The notes under the pieces: generated by a model
Told to the model about the DNA's origin: nothing
Databases searched by the model: none
Seen by the model: the letters and a program-made list of their open reading frames with translations, nothing else
IMG/VR virus record: IMGVR_UViG_3300030430_000934
Span: 1 to 37,216 of that record
Direction: 5' to 3' (one strand)
DNA: 37,216 nucleotides
DNA from: a virus
Shown: positions 356 through 32,091 of the stretch, piece by piece
Position numbering within the stretch: the first letter of the stretch is position 1
Layout: the number at the start of each line of letters is the position of its first letter
Translations under genes and position numbers: made by a program

Positions 356-381
356 TAGAACGACACTATCTCGGACGTAGC

Positions 382-636: not shown

Positions 637-641
637 TTGAG

Positions 642-1163: not shown

Positions 1164-1226
1164 TTAACAGGATTTTGGTTTTTTGGAAATGTCTTTAGTC
1201 CAAGGTATGTTGTGGAGGTTCAGGTT

Positions 1227-2555: not shown

Positions 2556-2556
2556 G

Positions 2557-2847: not shown

Positions 2848-2862
2848 TATTAGGTGAGTAAG

Positions 2863-3216: not shown

Positions 3217-3233
3217 CAAAGGAAGATGAAAAC

Positions 3234-4192: not shown

Positions 4193-4205
4193 TTGAGGAA
4201 TTGCA

Positions 4206-4505: not shown

Positions 4506-4516
4506 AGGAAATTACA

Positions 4517-6118: not shown

Positions 6119-6122
6119 TACG

Positions 6123-8633: not shown

Positions 8634-8637
8634 GGAA

Positions 8638-9126
8638 ATGGCTAAAGTTGAATTCAAGGAAGTCAGTAACACACAGGACGCTGCTTTCTTATGGGACAGA
8701 GACAATCCCGATGACAAGTTCTCTAGAAGCGCACCCTCTTGGTACAATGTTGACAAGTGGGTTCTAAGACTAGTAGATGGTGAAGTAGTAGGAATGGCTG
8801 GATACACAGACATGGGAGACTATGCTATCTTTGGTGGCCTGAAAGCAAGGGCGAAGGAAAAGCCCAAGGGTGGTGGAAACTGGAAGGCACTGTTGGACTA
8901 TAGGAAGAATAAGGTTGGTAATAAACCGAAGATAGCAGGGTTTCGTGCAACAAAGATGTCACAGGATAAATGGACTGCAATGAACGAAAGAGCAGGATAC
9001 CAACGTGAGGATATGATGGACATTCCTGAAGAACTAGTAGACAAGTTTCGTCAGCGTTATGGAGATGATTGGGGTATAATGAAGAATGTATCATGGTTCT
9101 TCCCACTAATGAGGGGGCTAATTTGA
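8638..9126 (+). CDS. GNAT-like acetyltransferase-fold protein
   Basis: Start ATG 8638 with GGTGAGG upstream. 162 residues, about the usual GNAT length. The layout is GNAT-like: paired strands (WVLRLVDGEVVGMAGYTDMG), a presumed acetyl-CoA loop and helix (KPKGGGNWKALLDYRK, residues 76-91), a strand (KPKIAGFRA), then a helix and aromatic (KWTAMNERAGYQRED) like the usual FYxxxGF end. The loop has Gly-Gly-Gly rather than the classical Q/R-x-x-G-x-G/A, so substrate and activity are uncertain. It could modify a viral or host protein. The terminase gene follows after 35 bases. Confidence 0.6.
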   Translation: MAKVEFKEVSNTQDAAFLWDRDNPDDKFSRSAPSWYNVDKWVLRLVDGEVVGMAGYTDMGDYAIFGGLKARAKEKPKGGGNWKALLDYRKNKVGNKPKIAGFRATKMSQDKWTAMNERAGYQREDMMDIPEELVDKFRQRYGDDWGIMKNVSWFFPLMRGLI

Positions 9127-9161
9127 TTGAATTGGTTTGACATACTCATCGGAGGCTCGAC

Positions 9162-10598: not shown

Positions 10599-10607
10599 GG
10601 TGATAAA

Positions 10608-12092: not shown

Positions 12093-12093
12093 A

Positions 12094-13740
12094 ATGGTAG
12101 AAGAAAGAAGACCCTCGTTGTTCCAACGGTTAACTCGTAGGACAACACCCAAGCCTGAAGACAGAACAATATACAATCCGGGGATACAAGAGAAAGACAC
12201 CTCTTATCTTGTTACTGCTCCGATAATATATCACATAAGTTATCAATCAGTGATAACTAGAACCTGCATAACCCAATTGAAGAATGAGATATTCAGAAGA
12301 GGATACATTTGGGAAGAGAAGTTTACTGCAAGGTGCGGAGACTGTGGAAGAGAACACAAAGAACCAGTAAAACAGTGTGTTGAGTGTGATAGCCTAAACC
12401 TAGTAAAGCCTGACAGAGAGCAACTAAAATACATTCACAAACTTCTAGATGGGTATGTCAACAAAGGCGAGCAACTGTTTATCGATGTACTCAAAGAAAT
12501 GGAAGATGATTTGAACATCATGGATGATGCCTACATGGTCATGGTAAAGGAATACTATGTCGATGGCAACGGCGACATTCGTATGCACCGAATCAAAGAA
12601 GTCTATCGTGGAGACCCTGTTACAATGCATATCTATGCAGACGAATATGGAGAGAGAGGGCATGAAGGATTCACATGTCTAAGCCACAGGAATTTCTTGA
12701 GCAAAGACCCACATGACTCTTGTGAGATGTGCGGTGCAGAATTACATCCTGTTCACTTTGTCAATAGAACAAACGGAAAGGAGCAGTATTTCATTGAGGG
12801 AGAGGTTCTACATTTCAGTAAATACTCACCATCCAGACTCTATGGACGTTCACCAATAATGACTTTATTTAATCACATAACGACACTCATAGCAATGGAA
12901 AACTACGTCAACTCATCATACACTAAAGCGAGAATGCCGAGAGGCGTATTAGCAGTTCAGACTAGAAATGTAGAATCAATGAAGTCGTTTTGGAGAGCCG
13001 TCAAAGAAAAGATGGAGCAAGACCCGCACTTCATTCCAGTTATGGGTATAGAAGGTGAGGGTAAAACAGGAGCAGTAGAGTGGGTCAAATTCATGGACAG
13101 TCTGAAAGAGATGGACTACATACAGGTCAAAGATGACTTAAGAGATAGAATCGCTGCATTCTACGGAGTGAGTAAAATCTTCATGGCTGATAACTCAACG
13201 AGTGGAGGTCTGAACAACGAGGGAATGCAGATACTTGTCACTAATAGGGCAGTTGAAATGGCACAGACAATTTGGAACAACTATGTGTTTCCTTTCATGG
13301 TCAAGGAGTTTGGCATCACAGATTGGGTGCTGAAACTTCCCCCATCAGAAGAAGAGGATGAAATAGCCAAACTAAGGAAGAGAGAGATTGAAGTCAATGT
13401 CGCTGCTTCAATCAAAAACCTTGGCTTTGAGGTTGACATGGATGATGAAGGTAGATTCACCTTCACAAAACCTGAACCAAAACCAGAGGAGCAAGGTGCG
13501 CCACAAGCGGAAGATGAGCAAGTTGAGACTGACCCATACGCAGGAACAGATATCGATGCCAGTCAACTCGGTCAGTTACAAGAACAGGCTCTTATGGGTG
13601 GGAGCAAACCTCAAGAGAATCCACCTGCAACAAGAAACAAACCATCGATGGAGACTGGTCCAGATAAGAGATTCAGTGGATTGCCAGCAGAAGCAGGTAA
13701 TCAAAACGTTGATTCACGGACTGAGAGGAGAGTGGGATAA
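12094..13740 (+). CDS. Portal protein with two inserted zinc-finger-like clusters
   Basis: Portal proteins form the dodecameric ring at one capsid vertex through which DNA passes and to which the tail attaches. The recognisable parts are the N-terminal wing and the middle segment (FSKYSPSRLYGRSPIMTLFN, then helices and the KARMPRGVLAVQ strand), with the late region DRIAAFYGVSKIFM and GMQILVTNRAVEMAQ typical of portals. Unusually, two Cys/His clusters interrupt the N-terminal half: C81, C84, C95, C98, and C195, H198, C210, C213. The C-terminal 90 residues are disordered and Gln/Pro/Glu-rich. GAGGAGG precedes the ATG at 12094. Confidence 0.88.
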   Translation: MVEERRPSLFQRLTRRTTPKPEDRTIYNPGIQEKDTSYLVTAPIIYHISYQSVITRTCITQLKNEIFRRGYIWEEKFTARCGDCGREHKEPVKQCVECDSLNLVKPDREQLKYIHKLLDGYVNKGEQLFIDVLKEMEDDLNIMDDAYMVMVKEYYVDGNGDIRMHRIKEVYRGDPVTMHIYADEYGERGHEGFTCLSHRNFLSKDPHDSCEMCGAELHPVHFVNRTNGKEQYFIEGEVLHFSKYSPSRLYGRSPIMTLFNHITTLIAMENYVNSSYTKARMPRGVLAVQTRNVESMKSFWRAVKEKMEQDPHFIPVMGIEGEGKTGAVEWVKFMDSLKEMDYIQVKDDLRDRIAAFYGVSKIFMADNSTSGGLNNEGMQILVTNRAVEMAQTIWNNYVFPFMVKEFGITDWVLKLPPSEEEDEIAKLRKREIEVNVAASIKNLGFEVDMDDEGRFTFTKPEPKPEEQGAPQAEDEQVETDPYAGTDIDASQLGQLQEQALMGGSKPQENPPATRNKPSMETGPDKRFSGLPAEAGNQNVDSRTERRVG

Positions 13741-13766
13741 TGACAGGATGGGGAGGAGATGGTTTG

Positions 13767-14171
13767 ATGGGTTGGCATATTATTCTAAAAGAACTTGAAT
13801 GTCCTAGAGCAACACAGGATTTGAAGTTGAACACCAAGAATAGAAATGCTGCAATAAAAGCAGAACACATACAATATGGCCCACTTAATGTAGACGAACC
13901 CGGAAGATATTGGGAAGATATTGCAGACTTTTGGAATACATCAGTTGAAGCGGCCAAGGCTTCTAATTGTAGCAATTGCGTAGCATTCGATATATCTCCT
14001 CGGATGGAAGATTGTATGCCATTAGAATTAGATGATGATGGTAGACTAGGATATTGTTGGATGCATCATTTCAAATGCCACTCGGCTAGGTCATGTAGAA
14101 CATGGGCCAAAGGTGGCCCAATAAAAGACGATAAGCGTTCTAAAGAAAATCAAATGAGGGGTAAACAATGA
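13767..14171 (+). CDS. Cys-rich metal-binding protein with tag variant
   Basis: Two starts compete. ATG 13740 overlaps the portal stop (TAATG). ATG 13767 has a stronger GGAGGAGAT site and places the tag variant MGWHIILKELE first; I prefer it (134 aa). The second half has six cysteines (C68, C71, C83, C97, C104, C110 with nearby HH), in the order C-x-x-C ... GYCWMHHFKC ... SCRTW. Similar Cys-rich small proteins are common in marine phages and probably bind zinc or iron-sulfur; the role is not known. Confidence 0.7.
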   Translation: MGWHIILKELECPRATQDLKLNTKNRNAAIKAEHIQYGPLNVDEPGRYWEDIADFWNTSVEAAKASNCSNCVAFDISPRMEDCMPLELDDDGRLGYCWMHHFKCHSARSCRTWAKGGPIKDDKRSKENQMRGKQ

Positions 14172-14377
14172 GTTGGCAAGATATTTTGAAGAAAAAGAAA
14201 AAGAAGAAGTCTACAGTCAATCAGGCTGGTAACTATACCAAACCCGGAATGAGAAAGAGAATGTTTCAGAGAATCAAAGCAGGTGGCAAAGGTGGCGCAC
14301 CCGGTCAGTGGTCTGCGAGAAAAGCACAGATGCTTGCTCAAAGATACAAGAAAGCAGGTGGTGGCTATCGAAACTGA
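14168..14377 (+). CDS. MSW-tagged basic protein with GGKPGQWSARKAQ-type domain
   Basis: 69 residues: MSWQDILKK, a run of lysines, then a domain recurring in phages and large DNA viruses with the core YTKPGMRKRMFQRIKAGG and GAPGQWSARKAQMLAQRYKK and a GGGY end. I recall this as an unnamed conserved domain (possibly DUF5872 or DUF6321), but cannot verify the number. Very basic, suggesting contact with packaged DNA. It overlaps the genes on both sides (ATGA before; the next gene starts inside it). Confidence 0.8.
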   Translation: MSWQDILKKKKKKKSTVNQAGNYTKPGMRKRMFQRIKAGGKGGAPGQWSARKAQMLAQRYKKAGGGYRN

Positions 14378-14696
14378 AAGTTGGGTCTCGATACTAAAGA
14401 GGTCTAACCCAAGAATACCACGAAAGAAAGGACAGAGAAGAAACTCAAAGAAGCACTCAGACTTGTACACAGATGAAAACCCAAAGGGAACGATACACGG
14501 ATTAGGATTCAAAGACGAAGAGACATCAAGAAAATCAGTGGCAAAGATAAGGAGAAGCAATAGAAGTCATGCGCATAAGACACAGGCTGCAATAGCAATG
14601 GAGCAAAGAGCAAGAGAAATGGGCAAGACAAAGGAAGCAGCGATATACAGGAAGTTCATAGAGCAACAAAAGAAAAAGACGGAGGCTAAGAAATGA
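14358..14696 (+). CDS. Basic virion-type protein with SW tag variant
   Basis: The open frame begins at 14283, but that would overlap most of the previous gene. GTG 14358 or 14361 gives about 112 residues with the tag variant ESWVSILKRSNPR at residues 7-19, so I favour it. Next comes a domain I recognise from phage and giant-virus proteins (HSDLYTDENPKGTIHGLGF; then SHAHKTQAAIAMEQRAREMG). Its function is not established. Strongly basic tail. The stop overlaps the next gene's ATG (ATGA at 14693). Confidence 0.7.
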   Translation: MVAIETESWVSILKRSNPRIPRKKGQRRNSKKHSDLYTDENPKGTIHGLGFKDEETSRKSVAKIRRSNRSHAHKTQAAIAMEQRAREMGKTKEAAIYRKFIEQQKKKTEAKK

Positions 14697-14962
14697 GTTG
14701 GTTTGATTTTCTAAAAGCCAAGTCAAAGTCTCAGAGGTCTCTGTCAACTTGGACAGACGAGGAGTGGGGTAGCGCAGAGCAACATCGTGCCAAAGAGAAG
14801 GGAAAGAAAGTACCCTCCAAGACAAAGGGCAGATACATGCCAAAGGCTACTTACAAAAGAACCCCAAAATCAACACTTAGGTATCAAGACGCTAAGAAAA
14901 GAAAAGGACGTAAGAAAGGACAGCAACACGTTCCAACAGGAAGGAAGTTCTCTCAGAAGTGA
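14693..14962 (+). CDS. MSW-tagged basic protein, 89 aa
   Basis: Begins MSWFDFLKAKSKSQR, followed by WTDEEWGSAEQH and a segment typical of a widespread phage family (KGRYMPKATYKRTPKSTLRY ... AKKRKGRKKGQQHVP) ending TGRKFSQK. More than a quarter of residues are Lys or Arg. The domain appears in many marine phage genomes near capsid genes, with no known activity. Likely packaged with DNA or part of head assembly; this is inferred from charge and neighbours. Confidence 0.78.
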   Translation: MSWFDFLKAKSKSQRSLSTWTDEEWGSAEQHRAKEKGKKVPSKTKGRYMPKATYKRTPKSTLRYQDAKKRKGRKKGQQHVPTGRKFSQK

Positions 14963-14967
14963 TTACC

Positions 14968-15390
14968 ATGCCGATTCGTAAAGTCAAGGGAGGATACAAG
15001 TGGGGCAGTAAGGGTAAGGTCTATCGCAATCGCAAGGATGCTGAGAGACAAGCAGCCGCTGCTTATGCTTCAGGCTACAAGAAGTCAATGGATTGGTTTG
15101 ACACACTAAAGAGAGAGAAGCATCCTGCTTTGAAGAGAGCCGGTGTGAGTGGATTCAGCAAGCCAAAGAGAACACCAGACCATCCCACTAAGTCTCATAT
15201 TGTCGTCGTTAAAGACGGTAAGAAAGTCAAGACTATTCGATTCGGTCAACAAGGTGCTGACACAGTAACTGAAAAGAATCCGAAGGGAAAGAGAAAAAAG
15301 AAGCAAGCCTCGTTCAAGGCTCGTCATGCTAAGAACATCAAGCGAGGAAAGACCTCTGCTGCGTATTGGGCTAATAAAGTAAAGTGGTGA
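14968..15390 (+). CDS. Two-module basic phage protein with the tag at the module junction
   Basis: ATG 14968 is preferred over GTG 14959, which lies in the previous stop. Residues 1-38 (MPIRKVKGGYKWGSKGKVY ... AAAAYASGYKK) match a short phage module known from many genomes. Residues 41-48 are MDWFDTLK, the shared tag. Residues 49-140 are a second module (KHPALKRAGVSGFSKPKRTP; KVKTIRFGQQGAD) ending with an ARH ... AAYW ... KVKW motif, common in marine viruses. The tag in mid-protein, exactly where the second module would start on its own, suggests a fusion of two genes. Confidence 0.8.
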   Translation: MPIRKVKGGYKWGSKGKVYRNRKDAERQAAAAYASGYKKSMDWFDTLKREKHPALKRAGVSGFSKPKRTPDHPTKSHIVVVKDGKKVKTIRFGQQGADTVTEKNPKGKRKKKQASFKARHAKNIKRGKTSAAYWANKVKW

Positions 15391-15394
15391 TGAA

Positions 15395-15514
15395 ATGGAT
15401 TGGAAAGACACATTGAGAAAAAAATTGATTGGTGGACAAAAGAAACTTGACAAAGACAAAGATGGAGACATCGATGCGGAAGACTTCAAACAACTAAGGG
15501 AGGAAAAAGAATGA
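15395..15514 (+). CDS. EF-hand mini-protein with tag, 39 aa
   Basis: The short frame from ATG 15395 to TGA 15514 encodes MDWKDTLRKKLIGGQKK followed by a complete EF-hand calcium loop at residues 19-30: Asp at positions 1, 3, 5, 7, 9 and 12 of the loop, Gly at 6 and Ile at 8. The flanking sequence KKL ... FKQLREEKE could supply the two helices. The tag and the ATGA overlap with the next gene (15511) support it as real. Family knowledge: such loops bind Ca2+, also in dockerin-type modules. Calcium is abundant in seawater; the structural meaning here is my inference. Confidence 0.7.
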   Translation: MDWKDTLRKKLIGGQKKLDKDKDGDIDAEDFKQLREEKE

Positions 15515-15735
15515 CAGAAAAAAGTGTAAGAGAGTTGGAAAAGGAACTGAAGAACGCAAGAATAAGAGACAGTGAGGAACATCGAAGAACTGTTACGAAG
15601 AACCGAGACTTTTCTGTTGGTGGTATTGACAAAGACACCACAGTTGAGAAGAAGATACCTGACACCGCAGATGTTCCAGATGCGATTCTTCTGCCAAAGA
15701 GAAGGCAACAGAAAAAGGAAAACATACCTTGGTGA
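15511..15735 (+). CDS. Hypothetical charged protein, 74 aa
   Basis: Starts with ATGA overlap. N-terminal helix rich in Lys/Glu/Arg (VRELEKELKNARIRDSEEHR), then an extended Asp/Thr/Pro region (DKDTTVEKKIPDTADVPD) and a basic end. No MSW tag. A coiled-coil head and disordered tail suggest a small adaptor; no family is recognised. Confidence 0.6.
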   Translation: MTEKSVRELEKELKNARIRDSEEHRRTVTKNRDFSVGGIDKDTTVEKKIPDTADVPDAILLPKRRQQKKENIPW

Positions 15736-15740
15736 TTTAG

Positions 15741-16643
15741 ATGGATGGCACATTCATGGATGTCCTGCGTAAGGAGGGACATACGGAACGTGCTAGAGAA
15801 CAGACGAGGATGAAGGAAGAGTATGATGCTAAACAGGAAAGAGAGCGTGAAAGAAAAAATGCGCAAAGGCAAGGTAGAGTAGACAACGTTCGTAAACTAC
15901 TGATTAGTTATGCTAGAACAGATGACGTTGCCAATAAGGATACTGCTAAGTTTCTAAAAAAGTTCATGGATGACTACGAAAGGCAAATCAACAATCTAAC
16001 TAATTCAATCGAGGATGTTAGAAGAGGAGAGACATTCGACGCATTCAAGCCTGTGGAACTTAGACCTATCTTCAGAAATGTTGAGGAGGTTGATGAGTCG
16101 AGAGCAGAGGTTGCACAGTTGTTGGGGTCAAGAAGAATAGAGACCTTCAGGGAATATGGAGGTAGGGACGCTGATGAACTGATGATGGGTATCTTGGATG
16201 ACATACCCAATCAAGACATGATAGTTGGAAGACTCACAGGAGCAGAATACAGAAACATCAGGGAATCGATGCAGAGCATAAAGGAAGTTCAGAATACAAT
16301 AGGCGGTGTGATAAACGCTGCAATGGAGAATCCAGACAATGTTGACACAGTGTTGAATGCTGTAAAGGAAGCCGCTATAATTCTAGAGGAGATAAGGGAG
16401 ATAGAGGAAGATAAAGAAGTCTCAGAAGATGAGAAAGAAACAATTCTCATGGATTTGGTTTACAAAAGGAGATATGGTCCGGAAACACTAACAAGATTCA
16501 TTTCAGATTCATACAGAAACCTATCGGAAAGAGGTGACGAAGAGGCTAAAGATGCCATGCTAAAGTTGTTGGATTTGATAGAGGATGTTAGAGATTATAC
16601 GTTTACTAGAGAGGGGAGAGAATACGCAATAAACTTAACCTAG
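15741..16643 (+). CDS. Hypothetical helical protein, 300 aa, weak tag
   Basis: N-terminus MDGTFMDVLRKEG keeps the DVLRK part of the tag but lacks the tryptophan; ATG 15756 (MDVLRKEG) is an alternative start. Residues 10-60 are an Arg/Glu-rich coiled coil (KQERERERKNAQRQGR). The remainder is helical and acidic (EDKEVSEDEKETILMDLVYK). No catalytic motif. Coiled coil plus acidic body could suit a scaffold or internal protein, but this is only a guess. Confidence 0.7.
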   Translation: MDGTFMDVLRKEGHTERAREQTRMKEEYDAKQERERERKNAQRQGRVDNVRKLLISYARTDDVANKDTAKFLKKFMDDYERQINNLTNSIEDVRRGETFDAFKPVELRPIFRNVEEVDESRAEVAQLLGSRRIETFREYGGRDADELMMGILDDIPNQDMIVGRLTGAEYRNIRESMQSIKEVQNTIGGVINAAMENPDNVDTVLNAVKEAAIILEEIREIEEDKEVSEDEKETILMDLVYKRRYGPETLTRFISDSYRNLSERGDEEAKDAMLKLLDLIEDVRDYTFTREGREYAINLT

Positions 16644-16664
16644 ATTGTGTAGGGGATAACTAAC

Positions 16665-16994
16665 ATGTCATGGCAGGACGTTCTCAAGGCTTCTGATTTC
16701 TTAGAGAAACTAGAGCCTAAGCAGAAGAAAAAACTGAAGAAACTTCTGCAATCAACACAGCCCAATGAGTACATGGGAACTGAGATGACTAAACTTGAGG
16801 ATGTTCTTTCTACAATGGAGAAGTTAGATATGGTGAAGTCAGACAAGTTGCTTACCAAGAAAGTAAAATCATTCAAAGAGAAGAACCTCGATATACTTGC
16901 TAGTGCTGCTGAACTCCGTAAGGACTATCAGACGCTGTATGACCAAATCAGAGAAGTAGTATATCCAAAGGGAGAGAAGGAGGAGAAAGAATGA
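16665..16994 (+). CDS. MSW-tagged helical protein, 109 aa
   Basis: Begins MSWQDVLKASDFLEKLEP with the serine codon TCA, unlike the AGT of most other copies. The rest is lysine-rich helix (KQKKKLKKLLQST; LLTKKVKSFKEKNLDILASA), probably coiled coil. Overlaps the next gene by ATGA. Function unknown. Confidence 0.75.
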   Translation: MSWQDVLKASDFLEKLEPKQKKKLKKLLQSTQPNEYMGTEMTKLEDVLSTMEKLDMVKSDKLLTKKVKSFKEKNLDILASAAELRKDYQTLYDQIREVVYPKGEKEEKE

Positions 16995-17347
16995 GTTGGT
17001 TTGACACATTGAAGATGCATTGCGGGACAGAGAGAGAAAAGAGTGACGAGATGGATAAAGCACCACCGATAAGGAATCCTAGAGAATCAGAGTTCAAGGA
17101 TAACGCTAATGATGATTTATCGAGGGCTGAGTATGTTGATTTATTCAGAGAGAAGGCAGACCCAATAATTGAGAGACAGGGTAGGCTGAAGATGGATTAT
17201 GCAGATGTCAAACTTACTGACTTGAAAATGACAGGGCAGAAGGCACAAGAAGTGGCAAGGGAACTATATGGTGACATGGGCTACAACGCAATATTCGCAG
17301 ACGATAGTGTACTTACATTCAAACTAAAAGGAGAAGGAAAGGTATGA
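16991..17347 (+). CDS. MSW-tagged protein, 118 aa
   Basis: MSWFDTLKMHCGTERE start, overlapping the previous stop by four bases. The N-terminal half is charged and probably disordered. The C-terminal 50 residues look like a small alpha/beta fold (MDYADVKLTDL, KAQEVARELYGDMGYNAIF, DSVLTFKLKG), similar in outline to a ferredoxin-like or RNA-binding hairpin, without a recognised family. Confidence 0.72.
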   Translation: MSWFDTLKMHCGTEREKSDEMDKAPPIRNPRESEFKDNANDDLSRAEYVDLFREKADPIIERQGRLKMDYADVKLTDLKMTGQKAQEVARELYGDMGYNAIFADDSVLTFKLKGEGKV

Positions 17348-17376
17348 GTCTTCCAATGCTAGGTGATTTAGAATGA
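17344..17376 (+). CDS. Possible 10-residue coupling peptide
   Basis: ATG 17344 overlaps the previous stop (ATGA), and the frame MSLPMLGDLE ends in a TGA overlapping the next gene's ATG at 17373. It contains the next gene's GGTGAT ribosome site. It may serve only to carry ribosomes across the 25-base gap, or be coincidental. Confidence 0.2.
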   Translation: MSLPMLGDLE

Positions 17377-17585
17377 GTTGGCAAAATACACTAAAGAAAA
17401 ATTTCATTGCAAATGAAAGAGAACATATGCGAAGAAGACAACCTAAGTCAGATGAGATGGCAAGAGTTACAACGACAGCCTCTACCGGACAAGACAAAGA
17501 AGCGGCCAAGAGGACTGAGGATAAAGAAGCAGAACTGCTGGCTATGATACGAGAGCGAAACAAAAAAGCGAGGGAAAGCAGATGA
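17373..17585 (+). CDS. MSW-tagged small charged protein, 70 aa
   Basis: Begins MSWQNTLKKNFIANERE, with AGGTGAT upstream at 17361-17367. The rest is Arg/Lys/Glu-rich and probably disordered or a single helix (EDKEAELLAMIRERNKKARE). Its stop overlaps the next start (ATGA at 17582). Confidence 0.7.
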   Translation: MSWQNTLKKNFIANEREHMRRRQPKSDEMARVTTTASTGQDKEAAKRTEDKEAELLAMIRERNKKARESR

Positions 17586-17812
17586 GTAAGAAAGAAGAGA
17601 AAAATGAAATGTTACTACTAATGAAAGAACTTGTAAATAAGGTGAATGCCTTGGAGCAAGCGGTATACAACAAAGACAACATACTGATGAAGTCAGGATT
17701 TGTCGTGCGTGAGACTCCGACCCCATCCATAGATACTTCAGGCGGTACTGTCCCATCTGGTGGAGACATGAGTTGGGAAGAGATACGCAAGATTGCAGAG
17801 AAGATAGGGTGA
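17582..17812 (+). CDS. Small coiled-coil protein with C-terminal MSW motif
   Basis: 76 residues. Residues 5-30 form a coiled coil (KNEMLLLMKELVNKVNALEQ). A Thr/Ser/Gly/Pro linker follows (TPTPSIDTSGGTVPSGG). Residues 63-76 are MSWEEIRKIAEKIG: the shared tag at the extreme C-terminus instead of the N-terminus. The layout of oligomerising helix, flexible linker and tag suits a scaffold or adaptor that presents the tag. Inference only. Confidence 0.7.
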   Translation: MSKKEEKNEMLLLMKELVNKVNALEQAVYNKDNILMKSGFVVRETPTPSIDTSGGTVPSGGDMSWEEIRKIAEKIG

Positions 17813-18056: not shown

Positions 18057-20642
18057 ATGAAAACCTCCGGCGTAGCGTTTGAAAAAGAGACAAGTGCCTT
18101 CACAAAGCGAGTCTTAGATTTCTTTGAGAGAGTACGCTATGCCTATCTTTCCGCTAGGGAAAACCCAAAGGAGTATGGGAAGAAGTGGAAGGAGACAGTC
18201 AAAAGCATAAGAGAGGAATATGACGGACTAGGTGACTTTGCTACAGAATTAAAGGACTCAATAAGCGAGAAGGAACTGTTTGATGATAAGGTCTTCAATG
18301 CTGAATCACTTCTTGCTAAGAGAGTCTATGAAGACATAAAGAGCATGAGGTTCGATTCAGATAACGTAGTTGACCCATTCTCAAAGCAACTAGGGAAGGA
18401 CGTACTGACCACTCTTTTGAAAGACGACTCGTTGTTTGTAGCGTTCATTCACTTTGCTCTAAGAAGCCACAACAACGCTTTACCGAAGAAAGCATGGGAG
18501 GAAAACAAACTCACTCCCGATGAGATAACTCAAGGAGCAATGGGTTTGGATTTGAAACCGAAGGACATTCCTCTTTACATCATAGAGCATTATGGAGATG
18601 ATGAGGACTCAACGAGAGTCAATGCAAAGTTCAAGAGGGCATACGGACTTTTGAAAAAGGTGTACGAGTCTCAATACTCAGATGAGCAATGGGATTCATT
18701 GGAGGACTTGGACATTGCTAAGTCGGATGAAAGTAAGAGCGAGGAAGAGAAGGAGGACATTGATTTCCTAATTCCTAACAAACCAATGTATAGGATATTT
18801 GACTTAGAGGACATGGAGCAGATAAAGGGACTCAGTGGTGAGTTCGTTGTTCAAGAGAAATACGACGGCATGAGAATACAGATTCACAAGTTCAACAATG
18901 ACATTAAGATATACTCTTACAACAAGAAGGATATCACAGACAAGTGCAAGAAGCAAGTAGAGAAGATGGAGAAGAAAGCATTTGGCGACTGCATCTTGGA
19001 TGCGGAACTCATTTTATTCAAGGACAATGAGCCTCTGCACAGAGCAGATACCATTACTCATGTGTTCAAGAAAGAACTAGAAGGCGGGGAACTGAGAGCG
19101 CATGTCTTTGATATCATGAAGCATGAGGGGAAGGATTTGACAGATGAGCCGTTGAGGGAGAGAATAAACATACTTCTCTATCAATTCGCACAACACTCTT
19201 CTGACTCTCTAGCCTTTCCATCAAAGCAGGATACTAGGATAGCAGACTCAATGAAAGAAGTAGGTGAGTATGCTGAGAAGATTATGGAGATGCCAGCAGC
19301 AGAGGGAGTTGTAATCAAGGACATTGAATCAACATACTACATAGGGAACAGAAAGAACCCCAAGTGGATTAAGTGGAAAAAGTTCGTTGACTTGGATGTG
19401 ATTGTCCTAGACAGTAAAAAAACAGCATCAGGTCTCTATTCGTATACGATGGGTATCGGTCCACTGACCGGAGAGGAAACCAGAGAAAACAAGACAGTGG
19501 AGTATGATGATAAGTCATACCTTCCAGTTGGCAAGGCTCTTAACACAAAGATAGAGGTGGATGTTGGGTCCATAATACGAGTCAAGGTAGATGAGGTTGG
19601 CAAGGCAAAGAAGGGATACAGTCTGTACTCTGCAAAAGTGATAGAACTACCTGAAGTAGACGAACCTGATAAACTCGTCACATTAGAGAAACTATCTACG
19701 AAAACAAAGAAGTCAATAACAGCAGGAACCTTCCCCATCTTCAATCCAAAAGACCTAGTAAGTCCATTGAGTGTAGTTGCTGAGTTGCAGAGGGATGATA
19801 AGAAGAAGGACAAGATAAAGAAATACACCGTAACGGATTTCGTGCATGGAGAAGCAGAGATAATCTGTAAGCACGATATCGAGGGCTTTACGGTCTATGG
19901 TTTCTCAGGTGATACGTTGATGCAGAAAAACGCCATCGTTCAGATGGACAGTCTAAAAGACCAATTAGGCAAATTGATGAAAACTAGAAAGTCGAAACTA
20001 CGAATCGCAATAAGAGACATATTATCAGATTACGGAAGACCAATGGACTTTGATGATATTGAAGAAGAGGTAAAGGAAAAGCACGAAGATGCCTATGATG
20101 AGATATTCGATTCTAAGCCTAGACAACTGTTACAATGGATGAAGAACCAAGACTCCTACATATTCATCTCACCAAGAAGGTTTGATGTTTCTCCTGAGTC
20201 AATAGAGAAGGACGAAGAAGAGGACAAACTAACTGGTGCTTTTGAAGTTCGTCAACGTGATGATGGCAATCTAGATTTCATTATAGAGACAGACAAAAAA
20301 AGAATGGCTTGGTTGATTGACTTAGATAAACCAGAAGACATCTTTGACTTGTTCGGCAAATCTGGTAAGTTCCCTGCTATAGTAGCAGAAAAGATAGACA
20401 GTAACAAGTTAATCGATAAAGGAGAGTTGGTGTTTGGCGTACAGAAAGATGGATACCATGAGTATAGAATGGAAGGAGAGAAGTTCCAAACTAGAATTCA
20501 TTTCAGGGTAGTGCCAGTAAATGAGAAGAATACTTGGTTAGTTTTCACTGGTAAGAAACAGGAGATGTTAGACCCCGAATCTGATGAGGGATTAATAGAT
20601 ATTACAAAGGATAAGTATCGTAATCTGTCATTGCCTGAGTAA
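18057..20642 (+). CDS. ATP-dependent DNA ligase with long C-terminal extension
   Basis: Seals nicks in DNA through an enzyme-AMP intermediate. Nucleotidyltransferase motifs are in order: motif I QEKYDGMR with K268 as the AMP-accepting lysine, motif III LDAELILF (314-321), IIIa HVFDIM (349-354), IV EGVVIKD (416-422) and V KWIKWKKF (436-443). An OB-fold region follows to about 535. Residues 1-240 are helical but do not clearly match the usual ligase DNA-binding domain. Residues 540-861 are extra: a winged-helix-like stretch (LRIAIRDILSDYGRPMDFDD) and a beta-rich end (GYHEYRMEGEKFQTRIHFRV). The total of 861 aa is much longer than typical archaeal ligases (about 560-600). Location inside the head module, not a replication cluster, is notable. 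Confidence 0.92.
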   Translation: MKTSGVAFEKETSAFTKRVLDFFERVRYAYLSARENPKEYGKKWKETVKSIREEYDGLGDFATELKDSISEKELFDDKVFNAESLLAKRVYEDIKSMRFDSDNVVDPFSKQLGKDVLTTLLKDDSLFVAFIHFALRSHNNALPKKAWEENKLTPDEITQGAMGLDLKPKDIPLYIIEHYGDDEDSTRVNAKFKRAYGLLKKVYESQYSDEQWDSLEDLDIAKSDESKSEEEKEDIDFLIPNKPMYRIFDLEDMEQIKGLSGEFVVQEKYDGMRIQIHKFNNDIKIYSYNKKDITDKCKKQVEKMEKKAFGDCILDAELILFKDNEPLHRADTITHVFKKELEGGELRAHVFDIMKHEGKDLTDEPLRERINILLYQFAQHSSDSLAFPSKQDTRIADSMKEVGEYAEKIMEMPAAEGVVIKDIESTYYIGNRKNPKWIKWKKFVDLDVIVLDSKKTASGLYSYTMGIGPLTGEETRENKTVEYDDKSYLPVGKALNTKIEVDVGSIIRVKVDEVGKAKKGYSLYSAKVIELPEVDEPDKLVTLEKLSTKTKKSITAGTFPIFNPKDLVSPLSVVAELQRDDKKKDKIKKYTVTDFVHGEAEIICKHDIEGFTVYGFSGDTLMQKNAIVQMDSLKDQLGKLMKTRKSKLRIAIRDILSDYGRPMDFDDIEEEVKEKHEDAYDEIFDSKPRQLLQWMKNQDSYIFISPRRFDVSPESIEKDEEEDKLTGAFEVRQRDDGNLDFIIETDKKRMAWLIDLDKPEDIFDLFGKSGKFPAIVAEKIDSNKLIDKGELVFGVQKDGYHEYRMEGEKFQTRIHFRVVPVNEKNTWLVFTGKKQEMLDPESDEGLIDITKDKYRNLSLPE

Positions 20643-21939: not shown

Positions 21940-23301
21940 ATGAGTGGATACATTAACACATTGAAAGACTTAGAAGCAGCCACCTACGGGTACGCTGGCG
22001 CACAGGGCAATTCGTTGCTCAAGGCTGCTGGTGTTGTTGGTGGTTTTGGAACGCCCCATGATGCAGCAAGTAACCCGTTTACTGCTGCTAGTGGACTAGG
22101 AGACCTATACAACGTCCTTTACGGACAGAAAGTTTGGTCTATGCTAAACAGAGAGGTCAATCCTCTCGCTATTCTGTCAAAGAGACCATACACATCCAGT
22201 GGATGGAGGGTTCTAAAGAGCCGACCAGAGGGTGGTTCAGGTTCTGCTTTCGGAATAGGAACAGGAAACCAAGGTTCCGCTACCCCTGCCGCAGACAAGA
22301 TTGGTGGAGTTGGTGAGAACGCAACACTAGGAACTGGAAACGATATTCCCGCACTCGCTCCTGAGTACGAGAAACTGTACATCAGTCCAAAGACTGTTGC
22401 ACATCTGTTTGAGTTCTCTGAACTCGGTATGGAACTATCTGCCATCGATGATGGTGTTGGTGACATCAGGGCCATCGTTCGTGAGGACATGGGTAAGCAC
22501 CACGCAGAGACACAGAGCAAGATGCTAGTAATGCCTCTTGAGAGGTACGATGATGGAACCGCATCTAACATAGAGAGAAACTACACATCTCTCATGAAGA
22601 TTGTTTCATCTGCTGGTGAGATTGCCGCTATGTACAACGCAAACCTATTGGACACTGGTGCTAACAACGGTGGAGATGCCGCAGTTGTTGCAGACGTAGT
22701 AAGACTATTCGGTACTTCCCGAACTGTATCTATATCCAGCAACAGTGCAACTGGAACTGCTTCTTTCCTAGACGCAGAAGTTGACTTTGGTAGCGGATAC
22801 GCTGCTGGTGATGCTAGGGTTCTAACTCTAACGATGCTGAACTCAATGATACGCAGAATCAGGCAGAACGGCGGAAACCCAAAGGTTATCCTAACTGGAT
22901 ATGACACACTACAGCACATCGCTGACCTGTTGCAGAGCCAAGAGAGGTTCATGGACAGGAGAGAAGTCATACCAACCTTCAACGGAGTTAGGGGAGTCAA
23001 GGGTCAGGAAGTTGGATTCAGAGTTGCAACATACTATGACATACCAATTATCCCAACCAAAGACATGCCTTCTACTGGAAGCAACACAACCAACGAACTA
23101 AGCGACATACTGTTCTTGGACACTGACCACCTATGGCTATCTGTGATGAAGCCTACTCAATACTTTGAGGATGGTATCACTAGCGGAAACCCATTCGGTG
23201 TTGGCAAACTTGGGAACCAAGGAATGTACCGAACAATGGGAGAGACCGGTTGTTCGTTCTTCAAGGGACAAGGAAAGATAACCAACATCAAGAGTGCGTG
23301 A
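21940..23301 (+). CDS. Major capsid protein, HK97 fold
   Basis: Forms the icosahedral shell. 453 residues, placed directly behind the protease/scaffold gene with no gap. Features of the fold include a Gly/Ala-rich N-terminal arm, a strand region (GWRVLKSRPEGGSGSAFG), an E-loop-like stretch (ATLGTGNDIPALAPEYEKLY), the long spine-helix segment (ETQSKMLVMPLERYDDGT) and an A-domain end with NGGNPKVILTGYDTLQHIAD and a late FFKGQGKITN strand. The beginning, MSGYINTLKDLE, resembles the MSW tag with Trp replaced by Gly, possibly a trace of the same signal; the arm may be cut by the protease. Confidence 0.9.
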   Translation: MSGYINTLKDLEAATYGYAGAQGNSLLKAAGVVGGFGTPHDAASNPFTAASGLGDLYNVLYGQKVWSMLNREVNPLAILSKRPYTSSGWRVLKSRPEGGSGSAFGIGTGNQGSATPAADKIGGVGENATLGTGNDIPALAPEYEKLYISPKTVAHLFEFSELGMELSAIDDGVGDIRAIVREDMGKHHAETQSKMLVMPLERYDDGTASNIERNYTSLMKIVSSAGEIAAMYNANLLDTGANNGGDAAVVADVVRLFGTSRTVSISSNSATGTASFLDAEVDFGSGYAAGDARVLTLTMLNSMIRRIRQNGGNPKVILTGYDTLQHIADLLQSQERFMDRREVIPTFNGVRGVKGQEVGFRVATYYDIPIIPTKDMPSTGSNTTNELSDILFLDTDHLWLSVMKPTQYFEDGITSGNPFGVGKLGNQGMYRTMGETGCSFFKGQGKITNIKSA

Positions 23302-24573: not shown

Positions 24574-25005
24574 ATGCCGAGCATAGATACAGATACTAGA
24601 CTTGTAATGACTATCCTATTCGTTGGTGCTATTAGCGGAGTAAACATATTCTTCTATGCCAATGTAAAGGACATGCTACTCTTCAGTGAATACATTCACG
24701 CTGCCCTCTTCGGGGTCATGACTGTAGGGGGGATTATGGTTATGAAAGCATTATTCGATTTGATACTGAATGATTTTATCGAAGATTTCCTACTACAAAG
24801 ACAAATTGGGTCATATTGGAACCGAAAGGCGAGAGATGAAGAGAACAGAAAGAGAGTCAGAGAGTCTCTTAGAAACTTCTCTCAACAGTTTGGATTACAG
24901 CAAGGGCAGATGGTTTATGGAGAGAACAATGCACCAACCATGCCCATGCCTGTTGAACAACCACAAACTGTTAGTCCTACCTTCTTAACGGGTTTCAATG
25001 AGTGA
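24574..25005 (+). CDS. Two-segment membrane protein, 143 aa
   Basis: Two hydrophobic segments at residues 9-29 (LVMTILFVGAISGVNIFFYA) and 40-64 (HAALFGVMTVGGIMVMKALF), then an acidic/aromatic amphipathic helix, a basic helix (RKARDEENRKRVRE) and a Gln/Pro/Met-rich tail. A membrane protein inside a head-tail gene cluster is unusual. Together with the next small membrane protein and the GTPase, it suggests a membrane-associated step such as release, but this is inferred from neighbours. Confidence 0.75.
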   Translation: MPSIDTDTRLVMTILFVGAISGVNIFFYANVKDMLLFSEYIHAALFGVMTVGGIMVMKALFDLILNDFIEDFLLQRQIGSYWNRKARDEENRKRVRESLRNFSQQFGLQQGQMVYGENNAPTMPMPVEQPQTVSPTFLTGFNE

Positions 25006-25010
25006 TTCAA

Positions 25011-25232
25011 ATGGTAAGCGAAATCCTTTTTGGGATGGATGAAACTACCTTAGCGTATGATTTACAGAGGGCGCATTCAGCAGACATTTGGTTTCTGAGG
25101 GCAAGGTTTTGGCTTTGGGGAACCTTCGCCTCAATCGCTAGTTTCCTAGTAGGCCACGCAATTTCTTTGTTTGGCTTCAACCTCTATCAAGGTGCTTGGC
25201 ATTTGATAACATCACTTTGGGCTGGACATTAG
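25011..25232 (+). CDS. Small single-pass membrane protein, 73 aa
   Basis: ATG 25011 with GTGAT just upstream; GTG 25002 is part of that site and lies in the preceding gene. Residues 32-56 (RFWLWGTFASIASFLVGHAI onward) form one transmembrane segment, with a second partly hydrophobic, Trp-rich end. Sits between another membrane protein and the GTPase. A holin-like role is possible by size, but nothing specific supports it. Confidence 0.65.
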   Translation: MVSEILFGMDETTLAYDLQRAHSADIWFLRARFWLWGTFASIASFLVGHAISLFGFNLYQGAWHLITSLWAGH

Positions 25233-25286: not shown

Positions 25287-25958
25287 ATGTCGGTGATGGC
25301 AGGATTTGCAATACTCATTGTAGAAGCAATGAATAAGATGTACAATCGACTTCATGCAATCAACTTCGGAATATACGGTGCTAGTCAAGCAGGAAAAACC
25401 ACTCTGCAAAAGCAGTTGATGACTAGAGGGGAAGTTCCCGAAATACAGAAGCGAACTGTTGGCAGACATAGAGCAACTAGAAAGTTCGTAAAACTAGACG
25501 GCGATGCCCACACAATAAAGACCGCAGACATAGGTGGTCAAACAGTGTATTGGGAAGAATGGATAAAGGACATGAGAAGTCGGCATGTAAAATACATCAT
25601 CTTCATGTTGGATGATAGGCACTTGAACAAGCACTATGACATAGAACAACAACTGTGCTGGACATTCCTAGTGGACTCAATATGCAGTCCGACTTGGGAG
25701 ATGGGAGGAAGAAAGAGAAAGAAGAAAGAGCATGACTATCCACTTGCAGTTGGGCTGTGGGCAAACAAGTACGACCTTTGGAAAGACAGATACCCGCATA
25801 CAGGAAAAATTGAGGAGCATCCAATATTTGAGTCATTCAAACCGGGCCTACAGAAACTGAACGATGTCGGTATTCCTTGCTTCAAATATATCGTAAGTGC
25901 TAAATCAGATTCAGAGATGGTGTATCGAGGAATCTTAACAATGATAAAAGACTACTAG
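25287..25958 (+). CDS. Arf/SRβ-like small GTPase
   Basis: All GTP-binding boxes are present in order: G1 GASQAGKT (31-38), a switch-I Thr (T57 in KRTVG), G3 DIGGQ (81-85), G4 NKYD (160-163) and G5 SAKS (204-207). The GASQAGKTT / DIGGQ pair is typical of the Arf and SR-beta branch. The first 20 residues form a hydrophobic, amphipathic helix (MAGFAILIVEAMNKMYNRL), a possible membrane anchor. A basic loop (GRKRKKK, 141-147) interrupts the fold near the G4 box. 223 residues is slightly longer than a minimal Ras-fold protein. The two preceding genes encode membrane proteins, suggesting a membrane-linked function. GAGGTGAT precedes the start. Confidence 0.85.
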   Translation: MSVMAGFAILIVEAMNKMYNRLHAINFGIYGASQAGKTTLQKQLMTRGEVPEIQKRTVGRHRATRKFVKLDGDAHTIKTADIGGQTVYWEEWIKDMRSRHVKYIIFMLDDRHLNKHYDIEQQLCWTFLVDSICSPTWEMGGRKRKKKEHDYPLAVGLWANKYDLWKDRYPHTGKIEEHPIFESFKPGLQKLNDVGIPCFKYIVSAKSDSEMVYRGILTMIKDY

Positions 25959-26013: not shown

Positions 26014-26706
26014 ATGACGATGCAAGGAGGATTTCAGCCACCGAGCCTTATCGGTGCAACAAACGCAACAGTGAATACAGGGATAAATCCCTTTCTAGAC
26101 CGCTTGACTGCGGCTAGGGCCGCTGGCCCTGTAATGGCTTATGAGTTTAAGTCGTTAAAGCCAAAGAAGCAACTGAAGGAGATAATCAAGGTTCTAAAAC
26201 CTGAGAGGAAGAGATTCTTGAAAATACCCTTTGGCTACAAATACAACATAAAAGATAGGTGCGTGGTTTGTGGAACACAGAAGTTCTGGACAGCAGATGA
26301 CCACAGGAGACCTCCTTTGCCATTACATAAGGTGAGAAAAGGATATCCAATGCGTGGGACGTTTTGTGAAAAACATGCAGCGATACACATGCAGTATGAA
26401 ATGCTAGAGCAGCAGGTTCTAGCGGAAGAACACGGACTATCATTCAGTGCGTATATTCCATCTGCTAAGAGTTTGAATCCAGTCAACCTAGTAAAGTCAG
26501 GACCACTCACAACATTGAGGCAAGAGGATATCAACTCTCTATCATCTGTTGGATGGAAAATAATACCACCAACCAATGAATCATCAAGTAAGGAAGAGCA
26601 ACTATATTCTTTAATGGTACAAACTGAAGGGATGGCAGAAAGAGTCAAGGCTTTATTGACCGATGGTGTCGTAGTGACAACACCGGAGCAGGAGGGTGAG
26701 GCATAA
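26014..26706 (+). CDS. Zinc-binding hypothetical protein, 230 aa
   Basis: GAGGT precedes the ATG. The central part has C83, C86, H97, then C118, H121, H125 (CVVCGTQKFW ... GTFCEKHAAIH), consistent with a zinc site. The segment before is highly basic (LKPKKQLKEIIKVLKPERKR). The C-terminal third is mixed helical and acidic. An N-terminal Ala/Thr/Pro-rich stretch may be flexible. Nucleic-acid binding is plausible; family unknown. The stop overlaps the next ATG (TAATG). Confidence 0.7.
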   Translation: MTMQGGFQPPSLIGATNATVNTGINPFLDRLTAARAAGPVMAYEFKSLKPKKQLKEIIKVLKPERKRFLKIPFGYKYNIKDRCVVCGTQKFWTADDHRRPPLPLHKVRKGYPMRGTFCEKHAAIHMQYEMLEQQVLAEEHGLSFSAYIPSAKSLNPVNLVKSGPLTTLRQEDINSLSSVGWKIIPPTNESSSKEEQLYSLMVQTEGMAERVKALLTDGVVVTTPEQEGEA

Positions 26707-27404
26707 TGGGAATTTTTGGAACGAGTAACAGTACACTAGCGACGCAAATAAACACAATGGGACAATCTAATTTTAAGATGACAAACAATCTCTTGACACT
26801 ACAAGAGAACCATGTAGAGGAGTTCTTTCAGTATCATGGGGAACCATTTCTACAGGCACTTGACAAATTGATAGAGGACATTGTTGAGAGAGTTGTTAGT
26901 GACCTACTAACCAAGTTGAAGTTTGTCTCTAATACTAACGGTGACTTGGAAATACACTCTGATTCCTTGGTGCAATACAACTCTATCACTCAAGAGAACA
27001 TTGACCTAGATATCGTCAACTTACTCTCTACGGCTGTAAACTCAGAAGTAATCATGCAGAGAAGAATGGCTAAACAGCAATACCTTGAGTCTCAAGGATT
27101 TGCAAGTTCAACTGGAACAACTACTGCACCGCAAGTGGGACAGATGAATCCACAGGGAATGAACCCTGCGAACATACAAGGTGGGAACATGGCAACTAAC
27201 ATGAACAATACAATGATGCAACAGCAGATGGCAATGAACAACGGTACTGGCTATCCAGTCCCACCTGCTGGATATGATATGAATAACAATGCGTATTGGA
27301 TTGACCCTGCTACTGGTCAACCTACTTACACGCCACCACAAAGCGGTCTAGGTTTGACTAGTGCTATTCAGAAGGGTGTTGCGTGGGCAAAGTGGTTGGC
27401 TTAG
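26706..27404 (+). CDS. Met/Asn/Gln-rich structural-type protein, 232 aa
   Basis: Residues 1-120 are helical and may form a coiled coil (NLLTLQENHVEEFFQYHGEP; LDKLIEDIVERVVSDLLTKL). From about 140 the sequence is low-complexity Met/Asn/Gln/Gly (PQGMNPANIQGGNMATNMNN), then Pro/Tyr-rich, ending in a short hydrophobic helix (SAIQKGVAWAKWLA). Low-complexity tails of this kind occur in virion proteins. No family is recognised. Confidence 0.65.
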   Translation: MGIFGTSNSTLATQINTMGQSNFKMTNNLLTLQENHVEEFFQYHGEPFLQALDKLIEDIVERVVSDLLTKLKFVSNTNGDLEIHSDSLVQYNSITQENIDLDIVNLLSTAVNSEVIMQRRMAKQQYLESQGFASSTGTTTAPQVGQMNPQGMNPANIQGGNMATNMNNTMMQQQMAMNNGTGYPVPPAGYDMNNNAYWIDPATGQPTYTPPQSGLGLTSAIQKGVAWAKWLA

Positions 27405-28700: not shown

Positions 28701-29777
28701 ATGCCGAAACTATCCTCCCCTAGTGACTTTACCAACATTAATGTAGACTATTCGCAAGGTAGAGGATTCTACACTACGCACACTGATGTCTCACAGTTAT
28801 TGCAAATAGCAGCGTTCAGTTCATCTACAACACCTTCAATCGCTGAAGTTGGTAGTCTAATTAAGAGAGCAGAGGAGAGAGTCGATGATATAGTCGGTCA
28901 CTCCTATCGTCCTGTAATTTACAAGAATGAGTTTCATGGTTTTGAGGCGTTTCATCAGGGTGCTTACCCAATCAACCGATTCAAGGACTATGTTGGATTT
29001 GTGCAACTAGATAGAAACAATGTTCAGAAGATAGTAAGGCTAGAGGTATGGCAGGGGAACGAATACAAGGACTTAGCCTCTGCTACTGCTACAGTTAAGA
29101 TGCCAGCAAATCCAATATCAGGGACTTTTACTATCACTCTTGGTGTAGGGCCATATACGTTTGTCCTTACTAAGGGAACCGATTTCTTTGACAACTATGG
29201 CCCAAAGACAACAGCCAGCCAAGTAACAGATGCAATCAATGAGGTCTTCCCACATAAGACTGCCAAGTTTACTGGTGAGACAAGTGCTAAATCCGTGACA
29301 GCATCTGAAAGCAGTTCAATCAACATATCTGATTTCTTCTACGCAACGACAGATAGCGAAGCAGGAGACACAGTAATCATATCCTCGTTACTATTGAGTG
29401 ATGACGGCTCTGCTTGTACTATAGCATCAAACAAAGCATCGGTGACTTCGTTCACAGACAACCAAGACCAAAGAAGACTAGGTGATTATTGGACAATAGA
29501 CAAAGACGGTAAAATCTTCTTCTTGAAGAACTACCCATTCCTACATGCTCACTCAGTTCGTGTGACATATGTAAGTGGTGAGTCAAGAGTTCCAGCCACG
29601 GTTCATGACGCAACTACCAAACTGGTTGCTGCTGAAGTTATCAGACATGATGACAACTCCATACTGATTGCTGAGACAGGTTCTAACATCGACCTAAAGA
29701 CCAAGCACGACATATTGCTTGAAGAGGCAAATAAGATATTGAATGGGAAGAAGGACATCATACATTTCATAGGGTGA
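28701..29777 (+). CDS. Head-tail connector (adaptor) protein with inserted beta domain
   Basis: Adaptor proteins bind below the portal and seal the head. The ends fit the family: an N-terminal helical core (GSLIKRAEERVDDIVGHSYR) and a C-terminal core (VRVTYVSGESRVPATVHDAT, then KLVAAEVIRHDD). Between them, about residues 125-260 form a Ser/Thr-rich beta insert (GTFTITLGVGPYTFVLTKG; KTTASQVTDAINEVFP). Usual adaptors are about 100-200 aa, so the insert explains the 358 aa. The insert pattern recurs in the last gene of the window. Confidence 0.72.
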   Translation: MPKLSSPSDFTNINVDYSQGRGFYTTHTDVSQLLQIAAFSSSTTPSIAEVGSLIKRAEERVDDIVGHSYRPVIYKNEFHGFEAFHQGAYPINRFKDYVGFVQLDRNNVQKIVRLEVWQGNEYKDLASATATVKMPANPISGTFTITLGVGPYTFVLTKGTDFFDNYGPKTTASQVTDAINEVFPHKTAKFTGETSAKSVTASESSSINISDFFYATTDSEAGDTVIISSLLLSDDGSACTIASNKASVTSFTDNQDQRRLGDYWTIDKDGKIFFLKNYPFLHAHSVRVTYVSGESRVPATVHDATTKLVAAEVIRHDDNSILIAETGSNIDLKTKHDILLEEANKILNGKKDIIHFIG

Positions 29778-30510: not shown

Positions 30511-32091
30511 ATGAGTAATGAAGTATTCGTAGGAGCAAATGCACAAGTAGGGTTATGTCCGGAAATGGACATGTATTTTGATAACAAAACGATAAGCGGT
30601 AGTCAGGTATTCACCGCAACTGCTGGTTCTGATTACAAGTTGGTCTCAGGTTTGTATGTAGGATGCATGGCTAAAGTAGTCAACAGTGGGACAACAACCT
30701 ATCACGCTGTTCTAGCGAATGACGAAACTACCGTAACACTAGACACAGATGCACCGGCAGCAAGCGGTTGCAATATCACGATACTAGGTTTCGGTGCGCC
30801 AGTCGCTGGACCCGTAAAGACAGGTAGCACCGTAGTAGGTGGCATTCTCTCTGACAGTTGGCTAGGACTAGTGAACACATTTACTCCGCCAAACGTAGAG
30901 GTTGAGATGAAGCAACTTAATCTCGCTGCTGCTGGTGGTAGAAACTTTGACTATCAGTACAAAGGCTCAGAGACTGTCAGTGGCGGTTCTCTAGACCTAT
31001 CATTGAACAACGGCTCTTGGTTGTATTACACACTAGGAGAAATGACATTCACCTCTGCACAATCAGATGTCGCAGCAACATCAAGTAACACTCACAATGG
31101 AATACTAACTAGAGAGGCATCTGAGGACATTGTTCGTGGCATAGAGGGCAACACATATCCAGATGTAGATGATGGAGCGGGCAATGCTAGGACTCTAAAC
31201 GCATTCAACCTACTAGACACTGCATCTCCGTTTGTATATACGTTCACTGAGGCAGATAGTGACGTACTACCTTCATTCGCTCTTGATGTAGTTTATGGAA
31301 AAAGAGGTAGAACAGGAAGCACCCAACTAGATAGCAATAACCCTAATACGAATATGTACTCAAGAATATTTACAGGGTGTCAAGTAAATACAATGACATT
31401 GAACTTTGAAGAGGGGCAAGAACTCAAGACAACACTAGACCTAGTAAGTAGGAGAGCGTTCGACACTCCAAACGGATACATACCAATGAGAGGGCAAAGC
31501 ATCTTGAAGGCCATAACAAACGACTCTAGCGATGTTGGTAATGATGGTAGTGAGTACGCAGACAGCGGTTTCGTCAACTACAGCACAAATGCAAAACCAT
31601 ACTCAGGTTCAAGCCTAGCAGACAACTATCCGTTCCTATTCTCAGACGGTGCTATCAAACTATTCGGACAAGTAGTTGGCAAGGTCAAGACTGGCTCAGT
31701 GACAATCAACAACAACCTCACTCCACAGAGATTCATTGGAAACTACAACAGACAGATTGCTTCTGCTCATATACCGGGACAGAGAACCTATGAGATATCG
31801 CTAACTATGTTGATTAGCGACACCAAACTTTGGGACCAACTGAGAATAGACAGCGAATCAGGAGAAGAGGGAACAAGCGGGGAACTATCACTTACCTTTG
31901 AGAAGGATACTGGTGAGAAGATATTCTTGAAGTTTGAAGACTATCTAATCAACTCCGTCACAGTTCCTTTCCCTGAAGACAAGGGGCCAATCGATGTAGA
32001 GGTACAGGCTAATGCTAGAACCCTATCAAGTGCTACTTACACTGGTAAGTGGGCTATCTATTCCGTAGGCGGTAGGGCAAGTAGTGAGTAG
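30511..32091 (+). CDS. Major tail (tube) protein
   Basis: 526 residues, Gly/Ser/Thr/Asn-rich with many beta strands. The C-terminal part (QRTYEISLTMLISDTKLWDQ; GELSLTFEKDTGEKIFLKFE; SVTVPFPEDKGPIDVEVQAN) is typical of tail-tube proteins, ending in a strand pair. It is placed immediately before the tail chaperone frameshift genes, the standard order. It is longer than most tube proteins (200-400 aa); the N-terminal 100 residues (VFTATAGSDYKLVSGLYVG; TTYHAVLANDETTVTLDTD) look like an added surface domain. Confidence 0.82.
   Translation: MSNEVFVGANAQVGLCPEMDMYFDNKTISGSQVFTATAGSDYKLVSGLYVGCMAKVVNSGTTTYHAVLANDETTVTLDTDAPAASGCNITILGFGAPVAGPVKTGSTVVGGILSDSWLGLVNTFTPPNVEVEMKQLNLAAAGGRNFDYQYKGSETVSGGSLDLSLNNGSWLYYTLGEMTFTSAQSDVAATSSNTHNGILTREASEDIVRGIEGNTYPDVDDGAGNARTLNAFNLLDTASPFVYTFTEADSDVLPSFALDVVYGKRGRTGSTQLDSNNPNTNMYSRIFTGCQVNTMTLNFEEGQELKTTLDLVSRRAFDTPNGYIPMRGQSILKAITNDSSDVGNDGSEYADSGFVNYSTNAKPYSGSSLADNYPFLFSDGAIKLFGQVVGKVKTGSVTINNNLTPQRFIGNYNRQIASAHIPGQRTYEISLTMLISDTKLWDQLRIDSESGEEGTSGELSLTFEKDTGEKIFLKFEDYLINSVTVPFPEDKGPIDVEVQANARTLSSATYTGKWAIYSVGGRASSE

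Follow-up and report, generated by a model that had tools for sequence, protein, structure and literature searches.

A conserved small GTPase encoded within the structural module of magrovirus-like tailed viruses

The use of small GTPases to switch membrane processes is a hallmark of eukaryotic cells, and only recently have archaeal small GTPases been linked to vesicle formation. The window analysed here, a 37 kb virus fragment of 37,216 nucleotides, encodes within its structural module a small GTPase that belongs, among the relatives sampled, to the core genes of magrovirus-like tailed viruses. None of the relatives examined lacks the gene, and its conservation is nearly that of the packaging motor, which suggests a virus-owned, membrane-linked GTP switch for the building or release of particles. 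Our preferred reading, to which we assign a probability of about 0.4, is that of a late, membrane-anchored GTP switch, which would be partnered with the neighbouring membrane proteins, would serve assembly or egress, and would be functionally like the haloarchaeal GTPase ArvA. A GTPase belonging to the core morphogenesis module of widespread ocean viruses, and conserved above the major capsid protein (MCP), offers a handle on the assembly of tailed archaeal viruses and their exit at the archaeal membrane; it could also provide a virus-borne minimal system for studying GTP-driven membrane remodelling.

The GTPase and its family

The features on which the argument depends are the following, those within the GTPase being given by residue number.

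21940–23301, + strand: MCP, nearest named relatives HCTV-1/HVTV-1 (Druskaviridae)
24574–25005, + strand: two-pass membrane protein (TM24574), 143 aa, with a charged helix and a conserved C-terminal PxFL motif (from hydropathy and the gene order of relatives)
25002–25232, + strand: small membrane-associated protein (TM25002), 76 aa, directly upstream of the GTPase, N-terminal half strongly conserved (AYDLQRAHSADIWFLRARF)
25287–25958, + strand: small Ras-superfamily GTPase, 223 aa (from the ORF, Pfam, homologue alignment, AlphaFold2 and Foldseek)
residues 3–22: predicted N-terminal hydrophobic/amphipathic helix
residues 31–38: G1, GASQAGKT
T57: G2
residues 81–85: G3, DIGGQ
residues ~139–148: basic insert
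residues 160–163: G4, NKYD
residues 204–206: G5, SAK
26014–26706, + strand: Cys/His protein directly downstream of the GTPase, 230 aa, C-x2-C ... C-x2-H, possible zinc site
26706–27404, + strand: conserved protein with MGxFGTSN N-terminus, fifth gene of the cassette (from synteny)
28701–29777, + strand: head-tail adaptor-like protein, phrog_17057 match, corresponds in gene order to HCTV-1 gene 117
30511–32091, + strand: tail tube protein, PF18906

The GTPase reading frame is far from a chance one, since relatives are encoded in 245 IMG/VR stretches and the G-box residues do not vary. The first-pass annotation had described all five G boxes as intact, and so they are: in 94 of 94 distinct homologues G31, G36-K37-T38-T39, T57, D81-G83-G84, N160-K161-D163 and S204-A205-K206 are invariant. 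Position 85, the catalytic glutamine of DIGGQ, is Gln in 43 homologues and Glu in 51. From these motifs we infer GTP binding and hydrolysis, and with Glu at position 85 in half of the family the hydrolysis may be unusual. The start is correctly placed, because ATG, GTG or TTG occupies that position in 93 of the 94 homologues. One contig (L244, 10930–10975) has a gene short of some 50 codons, including the P-loop, which is probably an assembly fault given that its near-identical twin, L243, is intact.

The AlphaFold2 model (pLDDT 69, pTM 0.71, with low confidence in the P-loop helix and switch I) shows the Ras-type order of strands and helices together with the N-terminal helix (3–22), and, taken with Foldseek, it indicates a six-stranded Ras-type fold and not an unrelated P-loop fold. 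Combined with the G boxes, this supports the original description of a genuine small GTPase. The further label 'Arf-like' is not established. Foldseek returned 659 matches at E<=0.001, with overall TM-scores of only ~0.5–0.6; among PDB entries the Ras-like domains of G-alpha proteins lead (E 2.6e-7), and Arl8B (4.7e-6) and Arl13B stand below them. The Pfam scores of the window protein are split between Roc (23 bits), MMR_HSR1 (21), SRPRB (17.7), Arf (17.6) and G-alpha (16.6), each under its curated cut-off; for Arf (PF00025) the gathering cut-off is 22.3 bits, and this family is above cut-off in none of the 22 virus records, the window included. The family matched by most of the homologues is MMR_HSR1, that of the ribosome-assembly GTPases. 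In a profile comparison with four reference sequences, HRas and G-alpha stripped of its helical domain scored above Arf1. Since profile, HMM and fold comparisons thus disagree, we rejected filing the protein as Arf, Ras or G-alpha and assign it to no single branch: from sequence and predicted structure we regard it as a divergent Ras-superfamily member, at the Arf/G-alpha/Ras-like end.

The virus, the cassette and its constraint

The MCP of the window is nearest to those of HCTV-1/HVTV-1 (Druskaviridae) and of methanogen viruses. The contigs carrying the same GTPase gene extend to 95–103 kb; among the large ones (84–103 kb) most have PolB in two pieces, and in the one large relative inspected PolB is split and accompanied by genes for an RFC-like ATPase and an ATP-dependent ligase. 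The same features, namely split PolB, clamp loader, ATP ligase, a genome of 90–100 kb and an MCP related to that of Druskaviridae, characterise the Magrovirales (Magrovirales/Aoguangviridae), viruses associated with marine Poseidoniales (PMC10768690); the relatives thus display the size, the split PolB, the archaeal replisome and the MCP of this order, the window itself being only a 37 kb fragment. As no named magrovirus in the phage collection was matched, we word the assignment as 'magrovirus-like'. The hosts of these abundant ocean viruses are probably archaea. No GTPase is mentioned in the accounts of Magrovirales/Aoguangviridae that were examined, and our literature searches, whose coverage did not extend to Philosof et al. 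2017 and Zhou et al. 2023 (where it may be annotated), found no small GTPase described in magroviruses or Poseidoniales viruses. Within that literature, the earlier statement that no function had been described for such a viral GTPase stands.

Close relatives of the GTPase were absent from the phage, plasmid and GTDB genome collections, save for one misbinned viral contig. This contig (L082), from a Maricaulis MAG in GTDB, carries the same viral gene order and is likely a viral contamination of the bin; a cellular source of the gene was rejected on this ground.

The gene had been placed inside a virus structural operon, and its position between the MCP and decoration genes and the adaptor and tail genes confirms this. 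In every relative covering the region the order is constant: MCP, decoration/SAP, TM24574, TM25002, GTPase, Cys/His protein, 26706, adaptor and tail, so that the synteny with the upstream membrane genes holds throughout. The GTPase is present in 58/58 and 49/49 MCP-bearing loci whose downstream sequence exceeds 2.6 kb; these sets overlap and are both samples of best-ranked matches, so that magroviruses further removed may differ. In HCTV-1 the genes follow the same order but the GTPase cassette is missing, one small single-TM protein lying between the decoration and adaptor genes. Gene 117 of HCTV-1, of the same length as the GTPase gene (672 bp) and in a similar position, was considered as a counterpart and discarded, its translation having no G boxes; it is the adaptor.

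The GTPase is under extreme purifying selection and is conserved in the manner of a core gene. Its mean column identity is 81%, vs 73% for the MCP. Between two relatives of ~100 kb the GTPase (74.4%) is second to TerL (84.1%) and ahead of portal (74.2%) and MCP (68.4%), in a ranking that sets aside one 78% entry, an ORF antisense to PolB. Pairwise dN/dS of the GTPase lies between 0.00 and 0.04 (8 pairs) and is the lowest among the compared genes in 7/8. Because synteny is fixed, the gene is universal in the sample and its dN/dS is the lowest or second lowest, we rejected its reading as an auxiliary metabolic or host-takeover gene. The cassette was also considered as a defence system: a PADLOC scan gave a single weak match, LmuA on 26706, which we dismissed as chance.

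Several other features of the window deserve mention in their own right. A SAP-domain protein (PF02037, 23768–24271) lies between the decoration genes and the cassette, an unusual spot for a DNA-binding domain. Directly ahead of the protease gene, within the structural module, 18057–20642 encodes an 861 aa protein that to the eye resembles an ATP-dependent DNA ligase; relatives conserve it, and the replication module of one relative holds another ligase apart from it. Inspection by eye of the ORF at 10608–12092, between the terminase and portal genes, suggests a fusion of a LAGLIDADG-type homing endonuclease with other sequence. Finally, 17 proteins encoded upstream of the prohead protease (352–17812) share a short motif, (M)SWxx[IL]LK, in most cases N-terminal (for example those at 633, 2854, 4206, 4517, 14168, 14693, 16665, 16991 and 17373), vs a mean of 0.5 and at most 5 in shuffled proteins. 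The internal head proteins of phage T4 carry a capsid-targeting tag, and by analogy the motif could be such a tag for internal head proteins.

A possible membrane-linked switch

A membrane link of the GTPase is plausible from its sequence and model. Residues 1–12 are strongly hydrophobic (H 0.8) and those from ~10 to 22 are amphipathic (muH 0.6 around 11–22), and within this conserved helix G6, F7 and E13 are invariant in the 94 homologues. The first-pass annotation had proposed that the N-terminus could act as a membrane helix; the predicted helix does look membrane-seeking, but the first 40 residues fall short of the TM threshold in most homologues, and the stretch being short and weak, a monotopic or switchable anchor is likelier than a TM helix. 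Of the two membrane proteins that the same annotation had seen adjoining the GTPase, TM24574 is clearly two-pass (by hydropathy 78 of its 98 homologues are two-pass and the remainder one-pass; 85/98 end in a PxFL-type C-terminus), while TM25002 is borderline in the window virus, where no 19-residue stretch exceeds 1.6, though 56/78 of its homologues are over the TM threshold. The downstream Cys/His protein gave a poor structure model (pLDDT 50). No Pfam family was matched among the cassette proteins beside the GTPase, so it is synteny that argues for their partnership with it.

In the mechanism that we propose, the GTPase would be made late, together with the virion proteins, and in one nucleotide state its N-terminal helix would enter the inner leaflet of the host membrane. 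TM24574 and TM25002 would serve it there as receptors or adaptors, the Cys/His protein and/or 26706 would regulate it or act as its effectors, and the GTP/GDP cycle would time a membrane-linked step, either head completion or assembly, or egress. We know of no tailed archaeal virus that has a membrane or buds, and this counts against the proposal. A stronger version, in which tailed archaeal viruses possess a complete small-GTPase membrane machine for assembly or release, Arf/ArvA-like and a core function of the virion module, with a switch, two receptors or adaptors, a Cys/His regulator and an effector, we think unlikely; if true, such a dedicated machine would give a clue to the way in which tailed viruses of archaea exit their hosts.

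The data that point to a late switch can also be read otherwise. Encoded within the structural module, from MCP and decoration to adaptor and tail, and resembling TerL and portal in its conservation, the GTPase might be a component of the virion, residing with the two membrane proteins at the neck or head vertex and opening or remodelling the host membrane for genome delivery. We regard this role in entry as unlikely: switch GTPases require cytosolic GTP and regulators, no homologue of the GTPase is known as a part of a virion, and the protein is without the MSWxxxLK motif common to 17 other proteins here, which tells against encapsidation if that motif is a tag for it. Equally doubtful is a soluble switch in assembly, where the GTPase would depend on GTP to act as a chaperone or checkpoint when heads are completed or joined to tails, and where the N-terminal helix would dock on a viral protein and not on lipid. 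Cellular GTPases play such a role in ribosome assembly, and the prevalence of MMR_HSR1 matches in the family (the window protein being below cut-off), the location of the gene upstream of the adaptor gene and a hydrophobic stretch too short for a TM helix all favour it; yet two membrane proteins are always encoded beside the GTPase, and no tailed virus is known to us to use a GTPase in this way.

A further possibility is that the protein is directed at the host, mimicking or disturbing a host small GTPase, for example in vesiculation or trafficking, and so remodelling the host or blocking a vesicle-based defence. Vesicle-forming small GTPases do exist in archaea (PMC10927574), and among the Ras/Rab-like GTPases of giant eukaryotic viruses is one with a proposed part in making the virion membrane (PMC4569851). 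Nevertheless, the fixed place in the virion module and the universal presence are unlike those of accessory host-takeover genes, and we consider a decoy or regulator of this kind rather improbable.

Comparison with known systems

With the Arf/Arl family (PF00025) the viral protein shares the D-x-GGQ switch II, a predicted, partly amphipathic N-terminal helix and the predicted Ras-type fold, Arl8B and Arl13B being among its fold matches. It differs in scoring under the Pfam cut-off and in its version of the Arf W-D-x-G-G-Q motif, of which D-x-GG is kept, the Trp before the Asp is replaced by Ala or Ser, and the last position is Gln or, in half of the family, Glu. Its residue 2 is Ser, so that the usually N-myristoylated Gly2 of Arf is missing. 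The Ras-like domain of G-alpha (PF00503) provides the best Foldseek matches and has in common the GGQ and, as a local likeness, D-x-I-C-x3-W after alpha-3 (DSICNNKW in G-alpha), but the viral protein, with 223 aa and ~20 residues from the P-loop to T57 of switch I, is devoid of the helical domain insert, and its Pfam match is confined to the P-loop region and far under cut-off.

Virus-encoded small GTPases are already known from giant viruses (PMC4569851), the mimivirus Rab being one example, and all matches of the model at E<=0.001 in the viral structure library BFVD are from giant viruses of eukaryotes. These, however, belong to an unrelated virus realm, lie outside any conserved virion cassette of tailed viruses and show only ~9–19% identity.

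The closest functional parallel would be the haloarchaeal ArvA/OapA (Mills et al. 2024, PMC10927574), a small GTPase with an N-terminal amphipathic helix. Without this GTPase Haloferax no longer forms vesicles that carry RNA, and a Zn-ribbon protein proposed as a GAP is encoded in its operon. The cassette neighbours gave no Pfam match to ArvB (DUF2073) or ArvC (DUF2072), and hence the viral protein may work like ArvA and is not counted as a member of that system; it is moreover encoded within a virus structural module. The likeness consists in a small GTPase with a membrane-seeking helix before beta-1, an archaeal setting, an unclear assignment by Pfam to either MMR_HSR1 or Arf, and the gene of a Cys/His (zinc-type) protein nearby.
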